A stretch of DNA of 64,000 nt from Rugalucina vietnamica (taxonomy: Eukaryota; Mollusca; Bivalvia; Lucinida; Lucinidae), in contig OZ024869.1 in NCBI GenBank assembly GCA_964017185.1, positions 72,976,008 through 73,040,007 of the forward strand. Reading direction: 5' to 3'. The translations under genes were made by a program, and so were the position numbers. The notes under the pieces are model-generated. The model was not told the origin of the DNA. It saw only the letters and a program-made list of their open reading frames with translations, and ran no database searches. Of the stretch, positions 1-38,772 are shown piece after piece (positions within the stretch are counted from its first letter, which is position 1; every line of letters begins with the position of its first letter).

Positions 1-1219
1 GATATCACTGCCCTACTTACCGTATCTTTAACTTTAACAAACCTAAGCGCAAATTTTGAACGAGGGGATTACGACACACTAAGAGAGAAAGCTTCACTCA
101 CTAACTGGGATTTCTTTTACGATACAGATATTAACATACATGCACAGTAGAACATATCTAATCACATAATCGCGATAGCCAAAGAATGTATACCAAACAG
201 AAAGACGCGTATTAAGCCAGACGAGCCGGCGTGGATAAACTCAGAAATAAGACGCCTTATACGAAAACGTAAACGGGCCTATAAATAGACAAAACGCACA
301 AATTTTCATTATCACTGGGTCAAATTCTAACATCTTAGAAACAGGGTTATTGATAAAATCAGGGATTCTAAGCAATCTCTAAAGAAACAAATATCAGATA
401 AACGTAAAACTGGCACTCTTTCACTTCTCGTGACTGGTGGCGAACCCTGAAAACAGTTATTTCTCCAAATTCTAAAAGTTCTGTTCCTCCTCTTGAAAAA
501 GATGGCATAATATATGACGATGATACTGACAAGGCGAATGATCTAAATGACTTTTTCCGAGACCAGACTTTAGTGGACGACCACGGTGTCGAACTTCCTC
601 CATTTGATAACTATAATGTCCTTTCTGAACTAAGCTCACTTCAAATCACACCCAACGAAGTTGAATCAGTTTTGAAGTCACTTCCTCTCGGAAAAGCCTC
701 TGGCCCGGACGGTATAAACAACCGTGTTCTTCGTGAGCTATCCAGAGAATTATCTGTTCCTTTCTGCTCTCTCTTTAACCGCTCTCTCCATACAGGCGAA
801 TTTCCTGACATCTGTAAAAGGTCTCATGTCACTCCTATTGCAAAAGGCGGTAATAGGGCATTTCCGTCCAACTATCGTCCAATCTCTCTTCTTTGCACTC
901 CTGAAAAATGTTTTGAACGGGTTGTGTTCAAGCATTTATATAAGCACTTCAATGAAAATCACATACTTACACCTTTGCAGTCTGGTTTTGTACCTGGCGA
1001 CTCTACTGTTAACCAGCTTACTTTCCTCTATAACACCTTTTCTCATGCTCTGGATTCTGAAAAGGAAGTGCGAGTAGTTTTCTGTGATATCAGCAAGGCC
1101 TTTGATCGTGTCTGGCATGAAGGTCTTCTTCTTAAGCTTGAGGCAGCTGGTATCAAATGTGGTTTCGATCATATCTATCTTACAGGAAGCAGAGAGTTGT
1201 CTTACCTTGATCAGAGTCA
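1..1219 (+). mobile_element. Outer non-LTR retrotransposon, 5' part (degenerate)
   Basis: 5' half of an old non-LTR retrotransposon cut by the window edge. Positions 1-572 translate in alternating frames with stops into the spacer between endonuclease and reverse transcriptase. From about 573 one frame stays open and shows RT motifs: LGKASGPDGINNRVLREL, NYRPISLLCTPEKCFERVV, SGFVPGDSTVNQL and the motif-A region DISKAFDRVWHEGLLLKL with its catalytic Asp. The frame is broken at 1213-1219 by insertion of the inner retrotransposon; the rest of the RT resumes at 5,967. The protein would nick genomic DNA and reverse-transcribe its own RNA. Stops and frameshifts make it dead. Clade not assigned. Confidence 0.85.
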
Positions 1220-1223
1220 GTAA
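573..1223 (+). pseudogene. RT fragment (fingers/palm up to motif A), outer retrotransposon
   Basis: Open stretch of about 216 codons with the N-terminal half of a non-LTR reverse transcriptase. The true RT frame near the end reads YRKQRVVLP then a stop then SES in another frame, and this continues after the inserted element as QWNDIRAGVPPGSILGP. The last few residues of the open frame are therefore out of the original frame. The YADD-type active site is on the far side of the insertion. Confidence 0.8.
1213..1219. repeat. Left target-site duplication AGAGTCA
   Basis: AGAGTCA here and at 5,960-5,966 bracket the inner retrotransposon. Removing everything between them, with one copy of the 7-mer, restores a continuous RT reading frame across the junction, so this is direct evidence of the insertion event. 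Confidence 0.9.
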
Positions 1224-1650
1224 AATAGTTCGAGGAGATATCGCCGTTTCAGCTTTCAACAGCTCGATTACCTACGTTGTAGACCACTGGGCAGCACATC
1301 GAGTGAAGTGTATTGATGGCTCCTATGACTTGTTCTTCGGGCATAATCAAAGGCCTTCGACCCGGTATTTCAACGAGGACGGGATCCATCTTTCTTACTC
1401 GGGTACAAAGGGATTATTAGACGCTTGGAACAGACACGTGACCGTCGTAGAAGATTTCAGTTTATGCGTGTTTAAGAAGAAATCTTCGAATTTGGGAGGC
1501 AATATCCACTCTAATAATCGGAAGAGATCACCTTCGTATAGACGCTCTCATCCATCCGGTTACCAGGGACAACGACGGGGCACCACTCGACGGTGCTATG
1601 GGTGTTCTATGACAGGACATATTTTAGAAGAATGCTGGCTTGCGAAATAG
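1220..1650 (+). pseudogene. ORF1 remnant: esterase-like tail plus CCHC zinc knuckle
   Basis: Within a frame ending at 1650 the translated protein contains FNEDGIHLSYSGTKGLLDAW, resembling the conserved C-terminal block of SGNH/GDSL-esterase ORF1 proteins (DG-H-L-S-x-G). A basic linker rich in Arg and Ser follows, then CYGCSMTGHILEEC, a C-x2-C-x4-H-x4-C zinc knuckle. In CR1/L2 elements ORF1 binds RNA and assists template handling. Only the C-terminal part is present because the insertion begins at 1220; the open frame upstream of 1220 belongs to the outer element by chance. Confidence 0.65.
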
Positions 1651-1692
1651 GACACTGGCACAATAGCCATTTGTGAACAGAATGGTATTAGT

Positions 1693-1986
1693 GTGTTTAA
1701 TGATATAAATCAGTTTGATTTTTTATATCATTTATGTAGTTTATGCAATTTAAATCAGTGTTTTTGTTCTGAAAGTAATTTAGAGGCTGACAAAGTAAAT
1801 CAAGACTGTGAATGTTCAAGCAATACTGAAATGCATAGCACTGTATGTGAATCTGTTACTATACAGAATATCATAGAAAATGAGCAGAGTTTACAGGCAA
1901 ACTCTTATGACCTAGTATTGAGTCCATGTACGGTACACACTGCTTCAATAGTTTCAACTCATAATGAACATTGTCAAATTGTGTGA
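1693..1986 (+). pseudogene. Spacer ORF before endonuclease (Cys-containing)
   Basis: Open frame of 97 codons between the zinc knuckle and the endonuclease, with cysteines clustered at the start (HLCSLCNLNQCFC) and no recognised domain. It ends with a stop 5 codons after the start of the overlapping endonuclease frame, so it is probably the N-terminal part of ORF2 separated by a one-base frameshift. Confidence 0.4.
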
Positions 1987-2637
1987 ACTTGCATTTAAGT
2001 AGTAAGGGGATAAACATGGGTCATCTTAATATTCAAGGTATTTGTGGCAAGAAACTTGGTAAATTTTCTGAATTACAAGCTTTGTTAACCTCGCCGGAAA
2101 ACTATAATTTACATGTTTTTGGATTAAGTGAGACGAAATTGAAGGCTCATAAACTTACCAATGTTTATCAAATTAATGGTTTTCAAACTCCGTTTCGTAA
2201 GGTTAATTGTAGTAATGGTGGCGGAGGTTTAATTGTTTATGTACGAAATGGTATAAACGCCAGACGAAGAGAAGACCTAGAAACTAATGATATTCCGTGT
2301 TTAATGTTAGAAATTTCATCAACAAACACTAGGTCATTTTTGGTCGGAAATATGTATAGGCCACCGAACGCAACTGTTGATTTTAATGATCGATTTGAAG
2401 ATTTCATTGATGTCATGAACAAAGAAGATAAAAAATTATTTCTGCTTGGCGATTTTAATAAAAATGTATTAAATGAAGACATTGATAGGAACTAGGGCAA
2501 TTTTACGACCTCTCTGGTGCTATCCCAGCTTGTTACTGAACCTACAAGAGTAGCAAAAGATTCAGCGACTTTTAATCGATCATATCTACACTAATTATGA
2601 GGAAAATGTCCAATGGGTTAATGTTTAAAAACTTTGC
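1971..2637 (+). pseudogene. APE-type endonuclease domain of inner retrotransposon
   Basis: The endonuclease/exonuclease/phosphatase fold is recognisable from GHLNIQGI (Asn motif), GLSETKL (catalytic Glu), GNMYRPPN, LLGDFN (Asp/Asn motif), a stop at about 2,493, and then LIDHIYTN close to 2,575. The domain ends after the MITE with SDYY at 3,463. The final motif in this family is normally SDH, so the catalytic His is replaced by Tyr. The enzyme would have nicked target DNA for target-primed reverse transcription. A premature stop, the MITE and the His loss make it inactive. Confidence 0.8.
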
Positions 2638-2641
2638 TTAA

Positions 2642-3458
2642 GGGTAAACATTACTATTGTTTATGAGCACACTGTTTGCGCAACTTCGGCGTTTAGTATG
2701 TGCATGTTACGCGTATCTTTAACGTCGTTTTGTGTTGATTTCTCAATGACGTTGCAAGCTGTAGAATCTTTTTCTGTTTGATTCTGCATAATTAAGTCCT
2801 AAAGCGGGTACACATATTGTTCATTTTTATTTTAAAAGAAGTTCTATGGCAATTGATATACCAAAATTCGTGTATAAGGTTAATTATGTGTGAAAATGAT
2901 TATTTCGTTGTTGATGACGTCGCATAAATATACGCGACGGCAGTGCAACGTTTGACGTTAAAACGAAAAAGGCGGGAATGTTGAACGTTTTTTCTCTATA
3001 TCTTCCAACGCAATCCGGTGACCCACACTTTTTATTTGAAGTTTTAAATGGTTACCACGTTTCCTGTCTGTTCGTGTAATTTAATCAAAATCATATGCGT
3101 AGTTTAGGAGATATTGCAAAATAACGTACTTTTTCCAGGTTTGAAAAGATGGCGGGAAAGTTAATTCTGCATGTAATCTCCTCAGTTTAAGAGCAAATAG
3201 TATCAAAATGTAAGAAAATAACACTCATCGTGTTGTTTAAGTTGTTTTTGCAGTAATAACATATATATTAAACATGTACGCTACGAGCGCGGTTTTCTGA
3301 AATGCACGAGAAACATCCAAAAAGTTCTGATACCATGGAAACGAGGCCGACGACTCCCTACTTTTATTTCGAATTTAGTCTAAGGATACAATTATTATCT
3401 TGGAGCATGTGAAGTTTCATGAAAATCATATGCGGGAATTAAATGGTAATGTTTCCCT
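2642..3458. mobile_element. TTAA-flanked MITE inside endonuclease
   Basis: About 817 bp of noncoding DNA with short terminal inverted repeats: left GGGTAAACATTACTA, right end the complement of AGGGAAACATTACCA. TTAA lies at 2638-2641 and 3459-3462. Deleting the insert plus one TTAA rejoins the endonuclease coding sequence (KLCL joined to SDYY). A TTAA duplication is characteristic of piggyBac and some other DNA transposons; the element has no transposase of its own. Confidence 0.75.
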
Positions 3459-3462
3459 TTAA

Positions 3463-4670
3463 GTGATTATTATGCTGTTTTTTGTAATAGAAAATGTAAT
3501 TCCGTCGTTGGAAAAAATGCGCATCAAGTCATAAATTACAGATCTTTCAAACATTTCGATGAAGCAAAATTTCTGATTGATTTAAGCCTTGTTGCTTGGG
3601 AAATAATTCAAAGTTTTGACATAGTAGATGATATGGTCTAGGTTTGGAATTCCCTGTTTTTAGAAACGCTCAATAAGCATGCCCCTTTGAAAAGTCGCAG
3701 AATAAAAAAGAAATACCAACCTGATTTGTTAACGCCTGAAATATTAGATGTCATGAAAGAACAAAATAGATACATGTATAAGTTAAATGGTAACATTGAG
3801 ATGTATAAAAGATTAAGAAACAAAGTTTCAGGTTTAATTGAAAAATCAAAAAAAAGAATCGTATCAATCCAAGATTGAAGACGGGCAAACAGACCCTAGA
3901 ACTATATGGAAGCTTTTTAAGGAACTAGGAGCCAATCGTAAGGGTGGTAATGAAGACACAAATTTAAACATAAGTGTAGGTGATCGTGTTATAACGGACG
4001 AAAATGCTTTAACAGACGTTTTTAACTCGTATTTCGTCAACGTTGCCTCAAATCTAAAGGAACCCATTGTCCCGTCAAATTTCGAACTTCTGACTGAATA
4101 CGTCAAATCAAAAATCCCCATTGTCACGGAATTCATAATTGGCCCGACAAATGAGGCTTTTGTAAGGAAGTCTCTTTCCCTGTTAAATACCAACAAATCC
4201 ACTGGAATTGACAATATTGGCCCAAAAATCCTCAAAATTTCAGCTAATGTTATAACACCAAGCCTTACCTGTATAGTAAATAAAAGTATAACATCTGGTG
4301 AATTTCCCAATTCCTGGAACGAAGCGAAAGTAAAGCCACTTTTCAAATCCGGCACTAAAAGTGATGTAAATAATTATCGACCCATCTCTATTCTACCAAC
4401 AATATTAAAACTTATTGAAAAGTGGGTAAACAATCAGTTTTTAGAGTACTTAAACACTTTTGATATTTTACATAAATCTCAGAGCGGTTTCTGACCAAAG
4501 TATCCAACTGAATCTGCCCTGGTCCAATTGGTTGATTCTTGGTTAGAGGCAATAAATTCTGGAAAGCTTACAGGTTGCGTTTTAGTGGATTTCAGAAATT
4601 AAAGCGTTTGATTTAGTCGATCATAAAATACTTTTGAAGAAACTACAATATTACAAATAAAACCCAGCGT
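3463..4670 (+). pseudogene. Inner retrotransposon ORF2: linker and RT N-terminal half
   Basis: Continues the endonuclease protein (SDYYAVFCNRK) through a linker to RT motifs: NKSTGIDNIGPKILK, NYRPISILPTILKLIEK, SQSGF and CVLVDFRN. A one-base shift occurs at about 3,850-3,880, a stop replaces a residue after SQSGF (4,492), and a further shift follows VDF. Between ILLKKLQYYK (about 4,660) and TQRVSLGSHLSNPAHVTLG a stretch of perhaps 20 codons is missing, taking part of the region after motif A. Confidence 0.8.
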
Positions 4671-5650
4671 GTTTCTTTAGGTAGTCATTTGTCCAATCCT
4701 GCACATGTCACATTGGGCGTTCCTCAGGGTTCAATACTTGGACCATTACTGTTTTTGTTTTTTATTAACGATTTGCCATTAGCGCTTAAAGAGTCAGCTG
4801 CTGTTGATCTTTATGCAGATGATACTATATTCTATGACTTTCAAACTAACATTGATCAACTTGAATCTAAACTTCAACTGATATTGAATTCACTTAAAGA
4901 CTGGTGTCGACAAAATGGGATGGTAATTAATACAGAAAAAAACTAAGGTTATGCTGATAACTACCAGGCAAAAGAGGCAACATTTACAAAAATCAGTTCT
5001 ATCTTTACGATACAGTGATATTGATATAAAAATGTCAACCTGTGATAAAATACTAGGCGTTTTTGTAGATGAAAATTTACTGTGGAATGATCAATTTCAC
5101 CATATATCAAAAAAGCTCTCTGCAAACTTATGGCTTTTAAGCAAGATACGGTCTTATTTGTCAACAAATCATCGACTTTTGTTCTATAATGCTTATATAA
5201 AACCGCACATTGAGTACTACAGCATTGTGTGGAGTAACGCATCAAATATTAGTATAAATAAGATAAACAAATTACAAAGACGAGCATGCAAGCTCATTTT
5301 GTCACAAGATTATAGTGGGCTTGAAGATTCTTTGAAACGACGACATTTTATCTTTTGATCAGTCTGTTTTTCTCAACAAGGCTAAGGTTATGTATAAAGT
5401 TCACAACAATATAGCACCTAGTTATTTACAGGAATTATTTCATATGAGAGATGTAAATCTAAATATCACCGCCTCAAATTTGAGATCAGTTGCGCAACAT
5501 AATTACATTGTGCCTCAAGCAAAATGTAACTGATTTAAGGGTAGTCTTACCTTCTCTGGCGTCATTGTTTGGAACAGTATTCCCACAGCTATAAAATTGT
5601 CACTGTCATTAGACATATTTGTAAGGAGCTGCATTAAATGGCTGAAAGAT
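4671..5650 (+). pseudogene. Inner retrotransposon RT C-terminal half (YADD)
   Basis: RT motif B GVPQGSILGPLLF, then the catalytic motif LYADDT near 4,815, then thumb and C-terminal region (LGVFVDENLLWNDQFHHI, LLFYNAYIKPHIEYYSIVW, KLQRRACKLIL). Frame is lost at about 4,945 and 5,350, and there is a stop in the last part (about 5,530). The family protein would synthesise cDNA at the nicked target. Dead copy. Confidence 0.85.
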
Positions 5651-5701
5651 TAAGCTACTCTGAAGAATTTAGCGAGTTACCTTCGCCGCCATTAATGGTA
5701 T

Positions 5702-5709
5702 CTCTCTCC

Positions 5710-5754
<45 letters not shown>

Positions 5755-5770
5755 ATTTGTCTGTCTGTAC
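5702..5770. repeat. (CT)n microsatellite in retrotransposon 3' UTR
   Basis: About 25 CT units followed by CTGT-rich sequence, between the ORF2 end and the 3' terminus of the inner element. Confidence 0.9.
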
Positions 5771-5857
5771 GTCTGTCTCTACATTAATATTTTGTTGATT
5801 ATTATATGCTTCATCACTATATAAACATGACATTTTGTATGTTTGTTGATTGTATGT

Positions 5858-5959
5858 ATTATGTTTTGAGGGCCCCAAGGAAGATTGGTGCAAAACCAAT
5901 TGGGTTACCCTCTTTAAATAAAGTATTTATTTACCTACTTACTTACTTACTTACTTACT
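5858..5959 (+). other. 3' end of inner retrotransposon with CTTA tail
   Basis: Ends with TTTAAATAAAGTATTTATTT and about six tandem CTTA units that abut the target duplication AGAGTCA. The AATAAA motif and a short-repeat tail mark the 3' terminus used for reverse-transcription priming in CR1/L2-type elements. Confidence 0.75.
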
Positions 5960-5966
5960 AGAGTCA

Positions 5967-7350
5967 CAATGGAACGATATTCGAGCAGGCGTACCACCAG
6001 GATCAATTCTAGGACCTTTACTTTTTCTACTCTTTATAAATGATATTGTTAAAGATATTGGCTGCAACATACGCCTCTTTGCAGACGATACTTGTCTTTT
6101 CTTAGTTGTTGAAAACCCTGACACTGCTGCTAATCTTCTTCATCTGGATCTTGACAAGATAATGGCATGGGCCAAAAAGAATGGTTAGTACTCTTTAATC
6201 CTGTAAAAAATGAATCCTTTCTAGCATCCCTTAAACAAATCAAACCTATTCACCCTCCACTATTTATGGAAGACACTCAAATCACAGAAGTAGACTCATA
6301 CAAACATTTAGGAATTTTCTTTCAAAACGACTGTTCATGGCACAAACACATTAAATACATCAAAGAAAAAGCCTGGACCAGAGTAAACGCTATGAAGAAA
6401 TTAAAGTATGAATTTGACAGAAAGTCTCTAGAAACAATATATTTCACATTCATTAGACCTATTCTTGAATACGCCGATACTGTCTGGGACAACTGCACTA
6501 AGTACGAGAGAGAAGAACTTGATAAAATCCAGAACAAGGCAGCTAGAATAGCTACCGGCACTACTAAACTTATCTCAGAGAAAGCTTTATATAAGGAAAC
6601 AAAATGGGAAACTCTAGCAGAAAGGCGTAGGAAGACAAACTAGTACTATTCTATAAAATGGTCAATGGCCTCCCTATCTATCTTCCCTCGTTCCACCCTC
6701 TGTTAATAGAACATCTTCTTACAACTTGCGCAATGCGAATGACATTCGGACAGTGCCTGCTCGAACTAAGCTTTATTACGACTCTTTTCTTCCATCTGTA
6801 ATTAGAGAATGGAACAACTTACCCTTAGCCACTCGACATTCTGATTCTTTAAACAGCTTTAAAAGAAGCCTCAACAACAGAGATAGATTTGTCCCTAAAC
6901 ACTATTACTCTGGAAACCGAAAACTTCAGACATTACACACACGCCTACAAACTGGATGTTGCTCACTAAATCACGATTTGTTTAACAAGGAAATCTCAGA
7001 AACGCCTCTTTGTCGATGTGGTGAAATCGAAACCACTGCTCATTATTTCTTATCTTGTCAACTGTATCAAAACCAACGCGTTGCTCTCAACACTGTAATT
7101 CTGACATTATACAAAACTACACAGCAGTATCCCATAACGAACCTGGATAACATATGTACATAAATTGCATCTATTATTTGCTATTCTTCAACTTTTTGTC
7201 AGCTATGTACAATTTATATTCGCCAGTATTACGTGTAACTTCCACTATAAGACTCCATAAGCTTAGAGCTTCCGTTCCAATGCTGTTGTATTGTATAAAA
7301 ACTTTGTAATGTATATGCAATTTAATATGTTGAAATAAATATGTTTAAAC
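5967..7350 (+). mobile_element. Outer non-LTR retrotransposon, 3' part
   Basis: Resumes the outer RT: ESQWNDIRAGVPPGSILGP, then LFADDT at about 6,080 (the F/YADD active site), thumb motifs, and a C-terminal knuckle-like PLCRCGEIETTAHYFLSC (C-x-C ... H-x4-C). There is a frameshift near 6,180 and stops at 6,641 and in the following 80 bases. After the stop at 7,163 come about 190 bp of AT-rich 3' UTR with AATAAA near 7,336; the exact 3' end is unclear. Confidence 0.8.
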
Positions 7351-8276: not shown

Positions 8277-8512
8277 TGAGCCGCCTCGTGGAAAAACCAA
8301 AAATGTGGTTTCCGAAAAGGTCCGACACAAACCGGTCTGTACAAGCACAGAAAAGAGCTAGAAGCTTGAAATTTCGGATTTAAGTAGAAGAGGAATTGTA
8401 CAATCCGAGTAGCGAAAACAAAGGCGCTGATCAGCTTCGCAATTACTGCGAAGCTGATCTGCGCCTTTGTTTTCGCCTATGCAGATTGTTGGTTTTCCCA
8501 CGAGGCGGCTCA
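8277..8512. mobile_element. Hairpin MITE family A, copy 1
   Basis: 236 bp. Ends are TGAGCCGCCTCGTGG and its complement; the middle is a near-perfect hairpin running from GCGAAAACAAAGGCGCTGAT to the complementary strand. The family occurs about 14 times in this window. Confidence 0.85.
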
Positions 8513-32600: not shown

Positions 32601-32742
32601 ATGGCGACCTATACTGGACTCGGACTAATGTCTGGTTCATCGCTGGATGGACTAGACATATGTTGTGCTGAATTCACAGGCGATGTGGAAACGGACTTTT
32701 GGAGTTACAGAATTGTGAAAGCGGAAACAATCCCTTATTCAG
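32601..32742 (+). CDS. anmK: AnmK exon 1
   Basis: Starts at the first ATG before the nucleotide-binding loop; context ACAATGG is favourable. 47 codons plus one base, donor TTCAG/GTGTGT. The reading MATYTGLGLMSGSSLDGLD matches the extreme N-terminus of the family, so little or nothing is missing upstream in coding sequence. Confidence 0.85.
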
Positions 32743-35700
32743 GTGTGTATTGATGATATTTGAAGAATACTTTGCTAGGTTTTCCAGAAAAGGTTTTTGG
32801 CAAATGTGTGAATGATGGAAAACCCGGTGGGCTAATGTCTGAATGTCGGGCTACAGCTCGAGAAGTCAGGAGTTCAAAACCCACCTTCTCCGAGTAATGT
32901 TCAGCAAACTTCTTTCTTAAAACGCCGGAAATAATTTCCGCTCCGTCCCAATTTAACTTACAGCGGAGGAAGGAGTATATGTTTGGCCAGTTTAGTACTT
33001 GAGGTCTTTCTAATGTTGTTAGAAATGTACATTCTATTTCGATTCGTCGATAGACTATTAGACATTTTGCAAAGTCATGGTTATTGCCCATTCAACTTGC
33101 CATCCATGTGGTGATTGATTTATAAAGCAAGTTATATTGGTACACAATTGGATTTAGCAGGTTTGGCTCTCCTCAGGGCTGACCAGAGCAATTTGCAATT
33201 GATTTGAATTGTGGAAAAGTAGGAAGAATACGTTTGGCCACCCTAACCATTTTAAAGATGAAGAAGTACACAAAGAACCATTCCGTCACTTTGGCCATAG
33301 TTTGTCTTCTTTTGCTGTAAAAGTTCTGACACAGACCTGAAACAACTCAAAAATAACAGTTACACTCGATTAGAACGACAAACCTTCTCTATTATGTTTT
33401 TATAGAAATTCGACAAAATAATAACTTCAAATATCAGCAGATACACACCTGACACGTACCTTTTCTGACAGATGACTGGCTTGAACGCTTACGTAACGCA
33501 GCAACTCTTTCGGGCGCCGAACTAATAAAACTGCATGTGGATTATGGACATTTTCTTGGACGTGCAATCACGTCTTTTGTCGATAAGAACGAGATCAGAG
33601 ACATGGTTCAATTCGCCGCCTCTCACGGACATTCTGTCTTCCATGCACCCGAACAGGGATACACCTTCCAGCTTGGCGACGGGGAAACAGTCGCTTCCCA
33701 TCTTCCGTTTCCGGTTGTCAGTGACTTCCGGACAAAAGATGTCGCCCTGAGCGGACAAGGGGCGCCACTCGTTCCAGGAGGAGAGAAATATCTTTTCGGA
33801 ACTTATGACATTTGCATCAATTTAGGCGGAATAGCAAATATTGGCATTAAAGGACAAAGAGGATTTGACATTTGTCCATGTAATATCATTCTAAATAGCC
33901 TTGCTCAGTTCAAAGATGGCATGTTATACGATAAAGATGGCGCCCTTGCCAGATCTGGTCACGTGATCAAAAAGCTGCTGGAGGCCCTAGAAAATCTTTC
34001 TTTCTACAAAGAGCCACCTCCAAAGTCGCTTTGGAAAGAGTGGATAGAAGCAAATGTATTTCCACTTTTAGATGTAAGTATAAAAACAGCAAATAAATGC
34101 AAGTGAATGCCCTTGATACATGTATACTCGGGGCCTATGAGGAGTTTATAGGCTTCATATGTCTAAACTATCTTTGCGTGTCCAGATTCTATCTGATGTT
34201 GATCCCTATGTATCACATTCAGGATCAAAGTACTACTAAAACCTACACGCAGAAAAAAACGTCAAAAACATACATTCTTAGAATTTGAAAAAAAAAATAA
34301 TACCGACTTACAAAAAATTAAAATAAGAATATTTGGATTCTTATGTTTTTATGGGGGAGTATTCCAGTTTGCTAAATAATCCATGTAGCATGCGGCCGTT
34401 TTTAATTGACTGTCTGTATGTCTGAACAAACAAACAAACAAAAAAGTCATTACGAAGTTGATGTTTCATAACATTGTTTGTGTCAGTCGTTTTTTGCAAT
34501 TGCTAAGAGTTCACGTTTCATGTTTACTAGTTACCTTGAGACTTGGCAACATTAAGGCTTTCAACACATAAACTACAGGATGATAATTATAATTACTAAT
34601 CTTGAGAAAACCTGTTTAAGGGTTTTAGCCCTTAAATAAGTTTACAAATTGATCAAAACACAGGTTTAAAAAAGACATATTATCTAAATGGAAAGGTGGC
34701 TATTTCGTAGACAGTACGACTTTGCTATAATTCAGAATGATCGACACTTCATAAAAGTGGGGTTTTCTTTCGTCATTGTTTCTCGGAAGAAAAGATGATT
34801 ATCAAAGTAATAAGGAAAAGCTATAAAAATCATATTTGCTTCTTTCATATTTATGGCAAAAAACGTTAATGCGCCAGTCATTTATATCCACGGCCCCCTA
34901 GGGCCGGGGAATAGCGGGGCTATTAACTTTTCGAATTTTGAAGCCCGGATAAAAGCCCCGGATAAAAGCCCTGCGGGGCCAAATTTTTGGTAAAATCCCT
35001 GCTAAAAGCACCGGCCCTCTGTGGACTGACAATAATGAGGAGTTAACGACAAATAACTTTAGCTATTTGAATAATCTTTACTAGCATATTCCATGGTGCT
35101 GAGATTAAGCATAAATTAGCCCAGTGGTTTCAGAGAAGAATTTGAACACCTCCTACAGACACACACAAGAGAGCATTTTGGTATTAAATGAACTTAATTC
35201 GTGCTCTTGAAATTTTGCTTACTATACTGTATGACAGCAAATGTGGCTTGTTCTCTAAAAATTAAAGTATGTATTAAATGTGAAAATACAGCTAAATACT
35301 TAAATCAAATTAATGCGAAATATTCATGTTTGAAAGTGTGGTTGGTCTCTAAAATGCTATATTGGCGGGAAACTAAAACCCCGGCATCCCCAACACTGCC
35401 GGGACTCGCCGGAGGTTAAATCCCGGCACTTAAGATCCGCTATGTCCCTGCTATCCCCGGCCCTAGGGGAACCGGGGATTCAAATGACTGATGCATAATA
35501 AGCTGCCACCGAGGAATTGCAGCAATCTGCCCGTAAAAACATGGCAAATATTTGTACTTTTCATAATGTTTGTGGTCCCGTCCTAGGCTTTAAATAAAAT
35601 GCGTATTCATACTATCAATGCTCTTTTCACAGGACAAACTTTGCTTTTATAAGATCACTGAAAGAAAATTAAAGAGTTTTTATTTTTACACTATACCATG

Positions 35701-38700
35701 TCGGTGTTGGGTTGCTTTAAAATGTATTTAAGAATTTTGATATTACTCAACAAAGTTTTACGCATATTAATGTTTGATGCTGCTTTGTAAACCGTGTACA
35801 TGTACATGCAATTCAGCGGTAAAATATTTGAAAATGTCATCAGGAAAAATCGGATATTTTAATATTTTTGCTCAAAACATTGATTGTGGGTACAAGTTAA
35901 AAGCGCCTCGCTGAGGCGGTTCTAACAAGTACCAATAATCTATGTTTGTAGCACAAAAAATGGCATACCCCAGTTTTTCAATTGGGATTCAATGGGGCAT
36001 ACATTACACGGACGTGTTTTCCTGGTGGTAAAGCAGAAATACCTGAGTATCCTATGTGTAAACCAAACTACATGTAACGAGGGGTATCAAAAAGTTCAGA
36101 GACAATGGTAATGAAAGTACATGGCAACATTAATAATTTGACTCGTCTAATAAATTATGATAATGTTTCATAGTAGTACATGAGAATTAATTTTCAGATC
36201 AATGATATTCGCCCACGAACTTCTGGGAATCCCCTCGTTGACACGGTTATAAAATGAGCCGCCTCGTGGGAAAACAAACAATGTGGTTTCCGAACAGGTC
36301 CGACACAAACCGACCTGTACAAGCACAGAATATAGCCACAAGCTTGAAATTTCGGATTTAGTAGAAGAGAAATTGTACTATCCGAGTAGCGAAAACAAAG
36401 GCGCTGATCAGCTTCGCGGTTACCGCGAAGCTGAGTAACCGCGAAGCTGATCTGCGTCTTTGTTTTCGCCTATGCAGATTGTTGGTTTTCCCATGAGGCG
36501 GCTCAAATGTTATTGTCTGTGTTAATAACCTCGAACACCTTCACAACCTTGGCATTTCTCTAACTGTGCGAATGTTAGCAGGTTGCCTGACAACTTTAGT
36601 TATTATCGACGAGAACGCGTGGCATTTTCTTCTGTTTACTACTAGCTTGATATTCTGCTGCTGTTAATTCATGTGTATCATATGAGCCGCCCAATGAGCA
36701 AACCAACAATATGCATATACGGAAAGAAAGACGCAGATCAGCTTCGCGGTAACCGCGAAGCTGATCAGCGCCTTTGTTTTCGCTGCACGGATAGTACAAT
36801 TCCTCTACTTAGTTATTACAAAATTTCAAGCTTATAGCCATCTTTTGTGACTGCACAGACCGATATGTGTCGGACCTGTTAAAAAACCACATTGTTGGTT
36901 TACTCATGAGGCGGCTCATGTATACGATGAAAGAGATATTATGCACGCCTACCAAATTAACGCTCTGATGCTTCACCAATGACAACTGCTCCAGGAGAAG
37001 CCTCAAAATCGGAGACTGATTTCATGCAGTAGATTCCAACGTTTGTGGTAAAAATATCATGGCGAAAATATCTATCATTTTGTCAATTTTACTTTCTGCG
37101 TAATTGATGTGTTTCTGAGTCCGACAGGACTATGTTCCTTACGCGACTCGTAAGTAAATCTGACGAAACTATAGAAATTGTTGACCTGATTAACGAGCAT
37201 TCCGAACCAGTAGTAATCCATACGCTACTGCATGACATTCCCCGATTTTCGATTCTCCTCCTGAGGACAAATGTTTTCCATATTTGGCCGTCGGATGAGC
37301 ATCAGAGCATTTGGTATAATAGGCGTGTTATCAAATTGAGAACTTTAAAGTAGACCGCCCACGTCTAAAAATTGCTATTCCATTCTTATTTATACGGTTA
37401 ACTTCTGTGACAGCAGAACTACGCAAAATTCTGCATCACAAAGTTTATTCTAACACACCCTGCCTATAAAAGCCAATGGGAAAGGGCGGTGATATATTGA
37501 GTGATATATCACTGGGCGGATTAGCGTGACGTTACTTTGCGCCGTTTTGACGCCATTTTGATTAAATCATGACGTCTGCTATCCCACAAGTCACGTTACC
37601 TAGATAAGATATTTTATTTCCAATTATGGACCATAACATGGTATGAAATTTAAGTGCATATATGAACGATTACAATTAGTTTGATTGGTGAAAAAAATTA
37701 ATAGAAAAAAAGGAAAACATACACACCCACATTATACATATGTCAATGTAAAATGTCACATAATAGTCATAATAGTGCATGGGCCGCGTCGAGAGAAATG
37801 TGATCATTGGTTCTGACAAAACCCAAAGCAAAATGGGATTGCATAACCATAGAAGGTAGATAGGTGCTTTAAATTTTTTTTGAAAAAGAAAGAAAATGGA
37901 ATGTTTATTGTTTTAGCAAAAACATTCAAGGCACAAACTACGCGACACGACTCACACCATATTCCCCGATTAGCATATTCACCATATTCCTTGACGTTAG
38001 ACGGTGTAGCGTCATTTCAACGCGTTCAAAACGTAACAAACATATGTAAACATTTGCGGTGCAGTCAAAAGTTTGGCGGGATTACTTCAGTGCAATGGTG
38101 GAAAAGTTAAAGAAACTGAAGGTTTAAAATGATTTTATTCCGTTTATTGTGTGTAAGAATCGAAATAGATCAGCTCTAGTGCGTGAATTGTTGAGTTTGT
38201 CGGTCAGTTGTACGCAGATAAATCACTCGCGCTGCGCGCTCGTGATTTGCTCTGCTTTACAACTGACCTCCAAACAGTGATATATATTACTCAACAATTC
38301 ACTGCTAGAGCTGATCTATTTCTTAAGTAACTTTATACCAAAATGTTTAATTCGCTTTTTTCAGGTAGAGAAATATCGGGTAGAAGATCTTTTGCGAACA
38401 GCGACCGAGCATATAGCCAGTCGTATAGCGGGGGACTGTCTCCAAGCTAAAAGAATCATAAGGGAGGACGACGATTCACCAAGTGTCTTAACTGTCATGA
38501 TAACTGGCGGGGGTGCTTTCAACGAATTCCTGGCGTCATTAATTAAGGAGAAACTACAGACGGAAGACTTTGAATTCGAAACCGTCGGTTGTCAGACTGT
38601 CAAGTTCAAAGAAGCGCTGGTGTTCGCCTTTCTTGGTCTGCGGTGTTTGATTGGCGTAGATAATGTGTTTTCTGACGTCACAGGTGCGCGCGCCGACAGC

Positions 38701-38772
38701 ACATCCGGGAGTATCCACAGGCCAGCTAAAGAAGGCATCGCGAGCTATCGCAAACTGAGTATGATTCACTGA
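32601..38772 (+). CDS. anmK: Anhydro-N-acetylmuramic acid kinase, three exons
   Basis: Exons 32601-32742, 33472-34073 and 38365-38772 join to 1,152 nt, 383 codons plus stop, close to the usual 360-390. The enzyme converts 1,6-anhydro-MurNAc, a product of peptidoglycan lysis, with ATP and water to MurNAc-6-phosphate. Visible motifs: MSGSSLDGLD (residues 10-19, nucleotide loop of the ASKHA fold), HVDYGHFLG (69-77), ASHGHSVFH (97-105), VVSDFRTKDVALSGQGAPLV (129-148), NLGGIAN (164-170), GFDICPCN (178-185, where D180 is the expected catalytic base), YDKDGALARSG, PPPKSLWKEW, TGGGAFN (295-301) and KEALVFAFLG (330-339). Bacterial proteins often have FDTGPGN; FDICP and PPKSL resemble Bacteroidota-type members as I remember them, which suggests transfer from bacteria. 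No signal peptide, so cytosolic. Intron 2 is full of MITEs. No MurQ partner is present. Confidence 0.88.
32743..33471 (+). other. AnmK intron 1
   Basis: 729 bp, GT...AG (acceptor TTTTCTGACAG). No transposon end recognised inside. Confidence 0.8.
33472..34073 (+). CDS. anmK: AnmK exon 2
   Basis: 602 nt completing a split Asp codon at the start and ending in phase 0 at GAT/GTAAGT. Codes for residues 48-248, including the substrate-binding DFR and GQGAP motifs and the catalytic Asp. Codon use is balanced and GC is higher than in flanking DNA, as expected for a maintained gene. Confidence 0.9.
34875..35490. mobile_element. 616-bp inverted-repeat element in AnmK intron 2
   Basis: Left end CAGTCATTTATATCCACGGC, right end the complement of CAGTCATTTGAATCCCCGG, continuing into CCCCTAGGGCCGGGG-type sequence on both sides. 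Inner flanks are GC-rich with CCCGG/CCCGGATAAAAGCC repeats. Noncoding; no clear target duplication. Confidence 0.75.
35862..36028. mobile_element. MITE family C copy
   Basis: Hairpin GATTGTGGGTACAAGTT ... ACCAATAATC around GCCTCGCTGAGGC, right end CGGACGTGTTTTCCTGGTGG; left end eroded. Confidence 0.7.
36255..36505. mobile_element. Hairpin MITE family A, copy 7
   Basis: Well-preserved ends TGAGCCGCCTCGTGGG and CCCATGAGGCGGCTCA. The loop region carries an extra duplicated GCGAAGCTGA arm, so three hairpin arms are present. Confidence 0.85.
36683..36918. mobile_element. Hairpin MITE family A, copy 8 (reverse)
   Basis: 236 bp, hairpin near its left end, flanked by AT/TA-rich sequence (CATA left). 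Confidence 0.85.
36919..38162. other. Intronic, no gene seen
   Basis: ORF 37,132-37,353 (73 codons) has no recognised motif. A palindromic GATATATTGAGTGATATATC lies near 37,490 and related sequence near 38,280, perhaps belonging to one larger decayed element. Confidence 0.4.
38163..38322. mobile_element. Palindromic MITE before AnmK exon 3
   Basis: AAATAGATCAGCTCTAG pairs with CTAGAGCTGATCTATTT, TGAATTGTTGAGT with ACTCAACAATTCA, and AAATCACTCGCG with CGCTCGTGATTT at the centre. The whole 160 bp can fold, 42 bp upstream of the exon 3 acceptor. Confidence 0.75.
38365..38772 (+). CDS. anmK: AnmK exon 3 (terminal)
   Basis: Acceptor CGCTTTTTTCAG. 135 codons and TGA. Contains LLRTATEHIA (257-266), the ATP-binding TGGGAFN and KEALVFAFLG with the expected Glu (E331), and a closing DVTGARADSTSGSIHRP-type tail that is usual for the family. 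Confidence 0.88.
   Translation, partial: VEKYRVEDLLRTATEHIASRIAGDCLQAKRIIREDDDSPSVLTVMITGGGAFNEFLASLIKEKLQTEDFEFETVGCQTVKFKEALVFAFLGLRCLIGVDNVFSDVTGARADSTSGSIHRPAKEGIASYRKLSMIH

Follow-up and report, generated by a model that had tools for sequence, protein, structure and literature searches.

The closest described relatives of the gene reported here are the anhydro-MurNAc kinases (AnmK) of bacteria, for instance the structurally solved enzymes of Pseudomonas aeruginosa (3qbx) and Shewanella oneidensis (3cqy). In E. coli, AnmK yields MurNAc-6-phosphate, which MurQ converts to GlcNAc-6-phosphate and D-lactate, while in Pseudomonas the MurNAc-6-phosphate is dephosphorylated instead (PMC5371407, available in part). 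The same fold and family are represented by yeast levoglucosan kinase (4yh5, 4zlu), which acts on a different sugar. Among the papers listed by our searches of an open-access library, in which subscription journals are mostly not covered, none treats AnmK as an acquired animal gene by its title or abstract opening. A Naegleria pangenome study names AnmK (in the available part of PMC9928731), and the two mentions of 'anhydro' in the available part of PMC12403961 are not AnmK. NCBI and UniProt already label mollusc and annelid proteins as AnmK-like under automatic names. The enzyme family and its database names are not new; the gene adds a member to a known kind, with a notable evolutionary history as a probably acquired animal gene.

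We analyzed a 64,000-nt stretch of DNA (the window; positions 72,976,008-73,040,007 of contig C1) from the 1.09 Gb, 47-contig assembly of the clam Rugalucina vietnamica. The window contains a three-exon AnmK gene whose introns carry repeats, with the following features given in window positions:

32601..32742, plus strand: AnmK exon 1 (142 nt; start codon, the ATG being the first in frame downstream of a stop; ATP-loop motif GLMSGSSLDG)
32743..33471, plus strand: AnmK intron 1 (729 nt, phase 1, GT-AG)
32956..33322, no strand given: dispersed repeat at about bases 214-580 of intron 1, from the whole-genome search
33472..34073, plus strand: AnmK exon 2 (602 nt; catalytic Asp180 in GFDICPCN)
34074..38364, plus strand: AnmK intron 2 (4291 nt, phase 0, GT-AG)
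35819..36049, no strand given: dispersed repeat in intron 2, which recurs on contig C5 and at other window positions
36254..36922, no strand given: MITE-like inverted-repeat element in intron 2 (a descriptive label), of which contig C5 and other parts of the window hold more copies
38365..38772, plus strand: AnmK exon 3 (408 nt including the stop TGA; TGGGAFN, KEAL)

The preliminary description had proposed three exons with matched phases and a 383-residue product, and we find its coordinates to be exact, with GT..AG at both introns and a joined 1152-nt CDS that encodes 383 aa with no internal stops. The AnmK motifs that it named are all visible in the translation, which contains GLMSGSSLDG, DFRTKD, GQGAPLVP, NLGGIAN, GFDICPCN and TGGGAFN. 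An alternative acceptor for exon 2 (exon from 33502) is also in frame and would give a 373-aa variant, which lacks 10 residues present in aligned relatives. When the assembly was searched for the AnmK family, only exons 2 and 3 of the window were matched, so no second genomic copy was detected. A near relative, database protein P0001, is a 384-aa open frame on a 1711-nt contig, compared with 6.2 kb for the gene here; such a length would fit a near relative's transcript, though it is not direct proof for Rugalucina vietnamica itself. Elsewhere in the window, LINE-like retroelement pieces lie at 408-7160, with RVT_1 at 408-1220 and 4638-4943 and an endonuclease/exonuclease domain at 1968-2492. 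The MITE-like family, which has nested inverted repeats, recurs near 8277, 53664, 56730, 58285 and 63614, and the Rfam search returned no hits within the 64,000-nt window.

The clam protein matches Pfam PF03702 with 193.5 bits (cut-off 24; e-value = 7.5e-57), in an alignment that covers profile positions 4-365 of 367. Its best NCBIfam model is NF007144, the AnmK model (e-value = 1.4e-118), although its 396.1 bits fall below the curated cut-off of 436. Among ten relatives scored against this model, the cut-off was also missed by four mollusc or annelid proteins (361-406 bits) and four nearby bacterial rows (P0065, P0056, P0101 and P0103; 371-381 bits), and was reached by P0166 (Fulvivirga) and P0093. 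By these profile scores, the clam protein is a member of the wider AnmK family and is not filed under the equivalog NF007144. Its predicted fold is that of AnmK, with the Shewanella and Pseudomonas enzymes as the best solved relatives followed by yeast levoglucosan kinase. The two bacterial enzymes share with it a full-length match, the nucleotide loops and the position of the catalytic Asp, but they are 29-31% identical and the clam gene is nuclear and split by introns. The yeast enzyme differs more (23-24% identity) and is about 60 residues longer. Asp180 of the clam protein aligns with Asp182 of P. aeruginosa AnmK, which we take to be the catalytic base, and this residue is conserved in all 43 animal-type rows and all 89 rows labelled bacterial.

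The protein searches scored the 8000 candidates that had the most words in common with the query and listed 120, most of them without a name. In these best-120 lists we found AnmK-like proteins of bivalves, gastropods and the annelids Lamellibrachia, Owenia and Capitella (genera are assigned to animal groups, and the mollusc species tree is taken, according to accepted usage). The closest named relatives of the clam protein are bivalve molluscs, in agreement with the earlier reading of the locus as animal DNA. The proteins of Mya, Mercenaria, Haliotis, Lymnaea, Owenia and Lamellibrachia are apparent orthologues, 50-61% identical, that group with it. Neither search listed, among its 120 matches, a named cephalopod or a named animal outside Mollusca and Annelida; since scoring covered only the 8000 best-word candidates and most proteins are unnamed, a missing taxon counts for little. 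Two of the database proteins, P0036 and P0297, are a Lamellibrachia satsuma AnmK-like protein and a glucokinase regulatory protein (GKRP) of Argonauta, a cephalopod. On the bacterial side, 78 of the best 80 of at least 581 confirmed prokaryote loci have Bacteroidota titles, the other two being a Chlorobiota MAG and a Thalassobius (Roseobacteraceae) MAG.

For the phylogeny, rows were hand-chosen from a pool of 43 animal-type and 90 bacterial representatives (181 bacterial rows before clustering); P0040 comes from ENA, whereas JGI is the source of P0043 and P0045. A careful 62-row tree was rooted on two Bacteroidales rows, and a quick 87-row tree took one long-branched E. coli row as its outside root. 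In the 62-row tree all 23 animal rows fall into a single clade (97/99), recovered in 99% of 200 bootstrap trees. Support within it is 100/99 for molluscs, 99/88 for bivalves and 94/92 for gastropods; the annelid-type rows are not resolved as a single group. The clam protein pairs with P0001 (86%) and adjoins Mya, Mercenaria and Mactra, so that its position is most likely that of a heterodont bivalve. The 87-row tree also recovers one animal clade (98), and the only 'bacterial' row inside it, P0119, is an animal-like fragment. In both trees the animal rows are nested among the sampled bacteria. The fork at which the animal clade joins 14 bacterial rows in the 62-row tree has support of 94/80, and a taxon is known for three of these sister rows, the Bacteroidia MAGs P0065 and L009 and the Opitutales MAG P0101. 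P0065, P0056, P0101 and P0103 resemble the clam protein in having NF007144 as best model with the same shortfall, and the first three are 45-46% identical to it; bacterial genes have no introns, and the animal clade stands on its own branch.

Transposons had been reported in intron 2, where we confirm repeats, and intron 1 holds a dispersed repeat as well. A comparison of intron 1 with the window and 30 kb of C5 showed no repeat; the whole-genome search then revealed one, with 40 of 602 candidate matches scored, 39 of these elsewhere in the genome. To compare intron positions we used 31 partial relatives, that is, proteins shorter than 340 aa matching the window protein at 1e-10, from a search limited to proteins 0.55 to 1.75 times as long as the query, in which pieces of exon 3 alone could not appear. 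In all 31, homology ends at residue 249-260, the exon 2/3 junction, suggesting that the position of intron 2 is old and apparently common to the relatives. By contrast, 30 of the 31 cross residue 47, the exon 1/2 junction, with no break, including P0002 (90% identical), while P0033 (93% identical) starts at that residue. Intron 1, seemingly missing in those 30 relatives, would thus probably be a newer, lineage-specific gain common only to very close kin, and with its dispersed repeat it is possibly a recent intron gain. This reading of intron ages depends on taking the entries as predicted without splicing, as their intron-like tails suggest.

We consider it likely that the locus is a working animal AnmK gene of bacterial origin, with a donor most likely of Bacteroidota type, that was acquired before bivalves and gastropods split (probably before molluscs and annelids did) and has been inherited vertically since. 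The analysis establishes the gene model, homology, predicted fold, conservation and phylogeny; expression, substrate, pathway and benefit to the host are inferred. Because AnmK is a bacterial protein family, and because a paper naming AnmK records bacterial contamination of a mite assembly (in the available part of PMC12507336), contamination or an assembly artefact has to be weighed. The chance of this is negligible, as had already been argued from the introns, since the gene resides in a host chromosome with two introns carrying dispersed repeats, the locus lies 73 Mb from the start of its contig in an assembly of only 47, and orthologues occur in many named molluscs. Those same orthologues rule out a recent private transfer into Rugalucina vietnamica. 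The gene is not peculiar to a single animal but is conserved in molluscs and annelids, so the key point becomes that it was acquired long ago, once or perhaps twice, and inherited vertically from then on. What the preliminary description said of a real host gene, its bacterial ancestry, an old event and conserved active-site residues is borne out. The Bacteroidota-like source, first suggested by motif variants, gains from the agreement of the trees with the genome scan, but with a taxon attached to only three of the 14 sister rows Bacteroidota is the likely rather than the fixed donor phylum.

Vertical descent from an old eukaryotic gene lost in most animals would need no transfer at all, and members of the family do occur in some other eukaryotes, such as the yeast enzyme. 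This would seem very unlikely, as the clam protein is 43-50% identical to the aligned bacterial rows and matches the yeast enzyme at only 94 bits, the animal rows fall inside the sampled bacteria whether the tree is rooted on E. coli or on Bacteroidales, and the 120 matches listed per search, mostly unnamed, include no named animal beyond Mollusca and Annelida. Separate uptake by molluscs and by annelids from related bacteria is improbable to a lesser degree. AU tests of trees that set molluscs apart from annelids (p = 0.0505 and 0.073) permit it, as does the unresolved grouping of the annelid-type rows; the well-supported single animal clade speaks against it, and trees that split this clade are about 50 log units worse. 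On the tree evidence, then, one origin for molluscs and annelids is favored. A bacterial-derived kinase of this family could also have come to act on another sugar, whether levoglucosan or a different anhydrosugar, or to play a regulatory part. We regard this change of role as unlikely, and prefer an enzyme acting on anhydro-MurNAc.

The preliminary description had called for a genome search for a MurQ-like etherase and GlcNAc-6-phosphate enzymes, and this recovered a GKRP-type gene and a NagA-like exon but no bacterial-type MurQ above cut-off. With exons scored singly, so that a split MurQ could score low, the only weak stretch for the MurQ model (TIGR00274) covers 38 residues and lies within the GKRP gene:

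C5:19351302-19360945, plus strand, with a further C-terminal piece near 19365300: GKRP gene (13 phase-matched exons, 405 residues)

N-terminal exons of this C5 gene were not found. GKRP is reportedly derived from MurQ, and in E. coli MurQ, Glu83 and Glu114 are functional residues. In SIS domain 2 of the clam protein, DASECPPTYG is identical to E. coli MurQ, within a 28-residue stretch that is 57% identical. MurQ catalyzes the next step in E. coli recycling, whereas GKRP, which occurs widely among animals, is chiefly known for regulating glucokinase, so an etherase role in the clam is that of a candidate. DASEC is present in all 30 named bivalve and gastropod GKRP rows, in 17 of 19 other named rows (the exceptions being one DATEC and one DAVEC) and in 68 of the 71 remaining rows, including hemichordates, echinoderms, lancelets and fish. 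A motif so common across animals is no evidence that GKRP was retained to work alongside AnmK, and co-retention gave no signal. The NagA-like deacetylase is a single exon-size match of 54.5 bits (e-value = 3.2e-12); the cut-off, set for the whole protein, is 225.65. Amidase_2 has four genome matches, two with an in-frame stop, and the soluble lytic transglycosylase domain PF01464 has none, in a search that an intron-split g-type lysozyme could escape. Bacterial gene neighborhoods were also considered as a clue to function. Across the 80 clustered loci, the two commonest neighbor families each lie beside anmK in 22, one MurF-like and one lipoprotein-like by eye, and none of the neighbors looked at suggests recycling.

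To our knowledge, animals make no peptidoglycan. The best account of the gene would be that it salvages anhydro-MurNAc, or disposes of it, when bacteria are eaten, housed as symbionts or met as pathogens, with the substrate, the cytosolic route and the next step set out here as a proposal. Nutrition, detoxification and immunity, put forward in the preliminary description, are hypothetical uses. Bacterial wall debris with 1,6-anhydro-MurNAc ends would be cut by amidases and hexosaminidases in a gut cell or phagocyte, and free anhMurNAc would enter the cytosol. The clam AnmK starts at the nucleotide loop, with no signal peptide apparent by eye. Judging from its family, its fold and the conserved catalytic Asp, AnmK would open the anhydro ring at the expense of ATP and water, yielding MurNAc-6-phosphate. 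More speculatively, a MurQ-family protein, with animal GKRP as the candidate, might remove the lactyl ether to give GlcNAc-6-phosphate, which a NagA-like deacetylase would feed into hexosamine metabolism. In its fullest form, molluscs and annelids would run a host muramic-acid salvage in which the Bacteroidota-type kinase opens anhydro-MurNAc, the MurQ-related GKRP serves as MurNAc-6-phosphate etherase, the wall sugar is burned and a microbial signal is removed. We offer this complete pathway tentatively and think it doubtful as a whole.

Anhydro-muramic acid is a bacterial product that animals do not make, and the retention of active-site residues since before bivalves and gastropods split points to lasting selection to handle it. 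The tubeworm group of Lamellibrachia lives on symbionts. The gene suggests how filter feeders, grazers and a symbiont-bearing tubeworm could eat or detoxify bacterial wall fragments, a route open to testing, and it gives a reason to ask whether invertebrate GKRP retains etherase activity.
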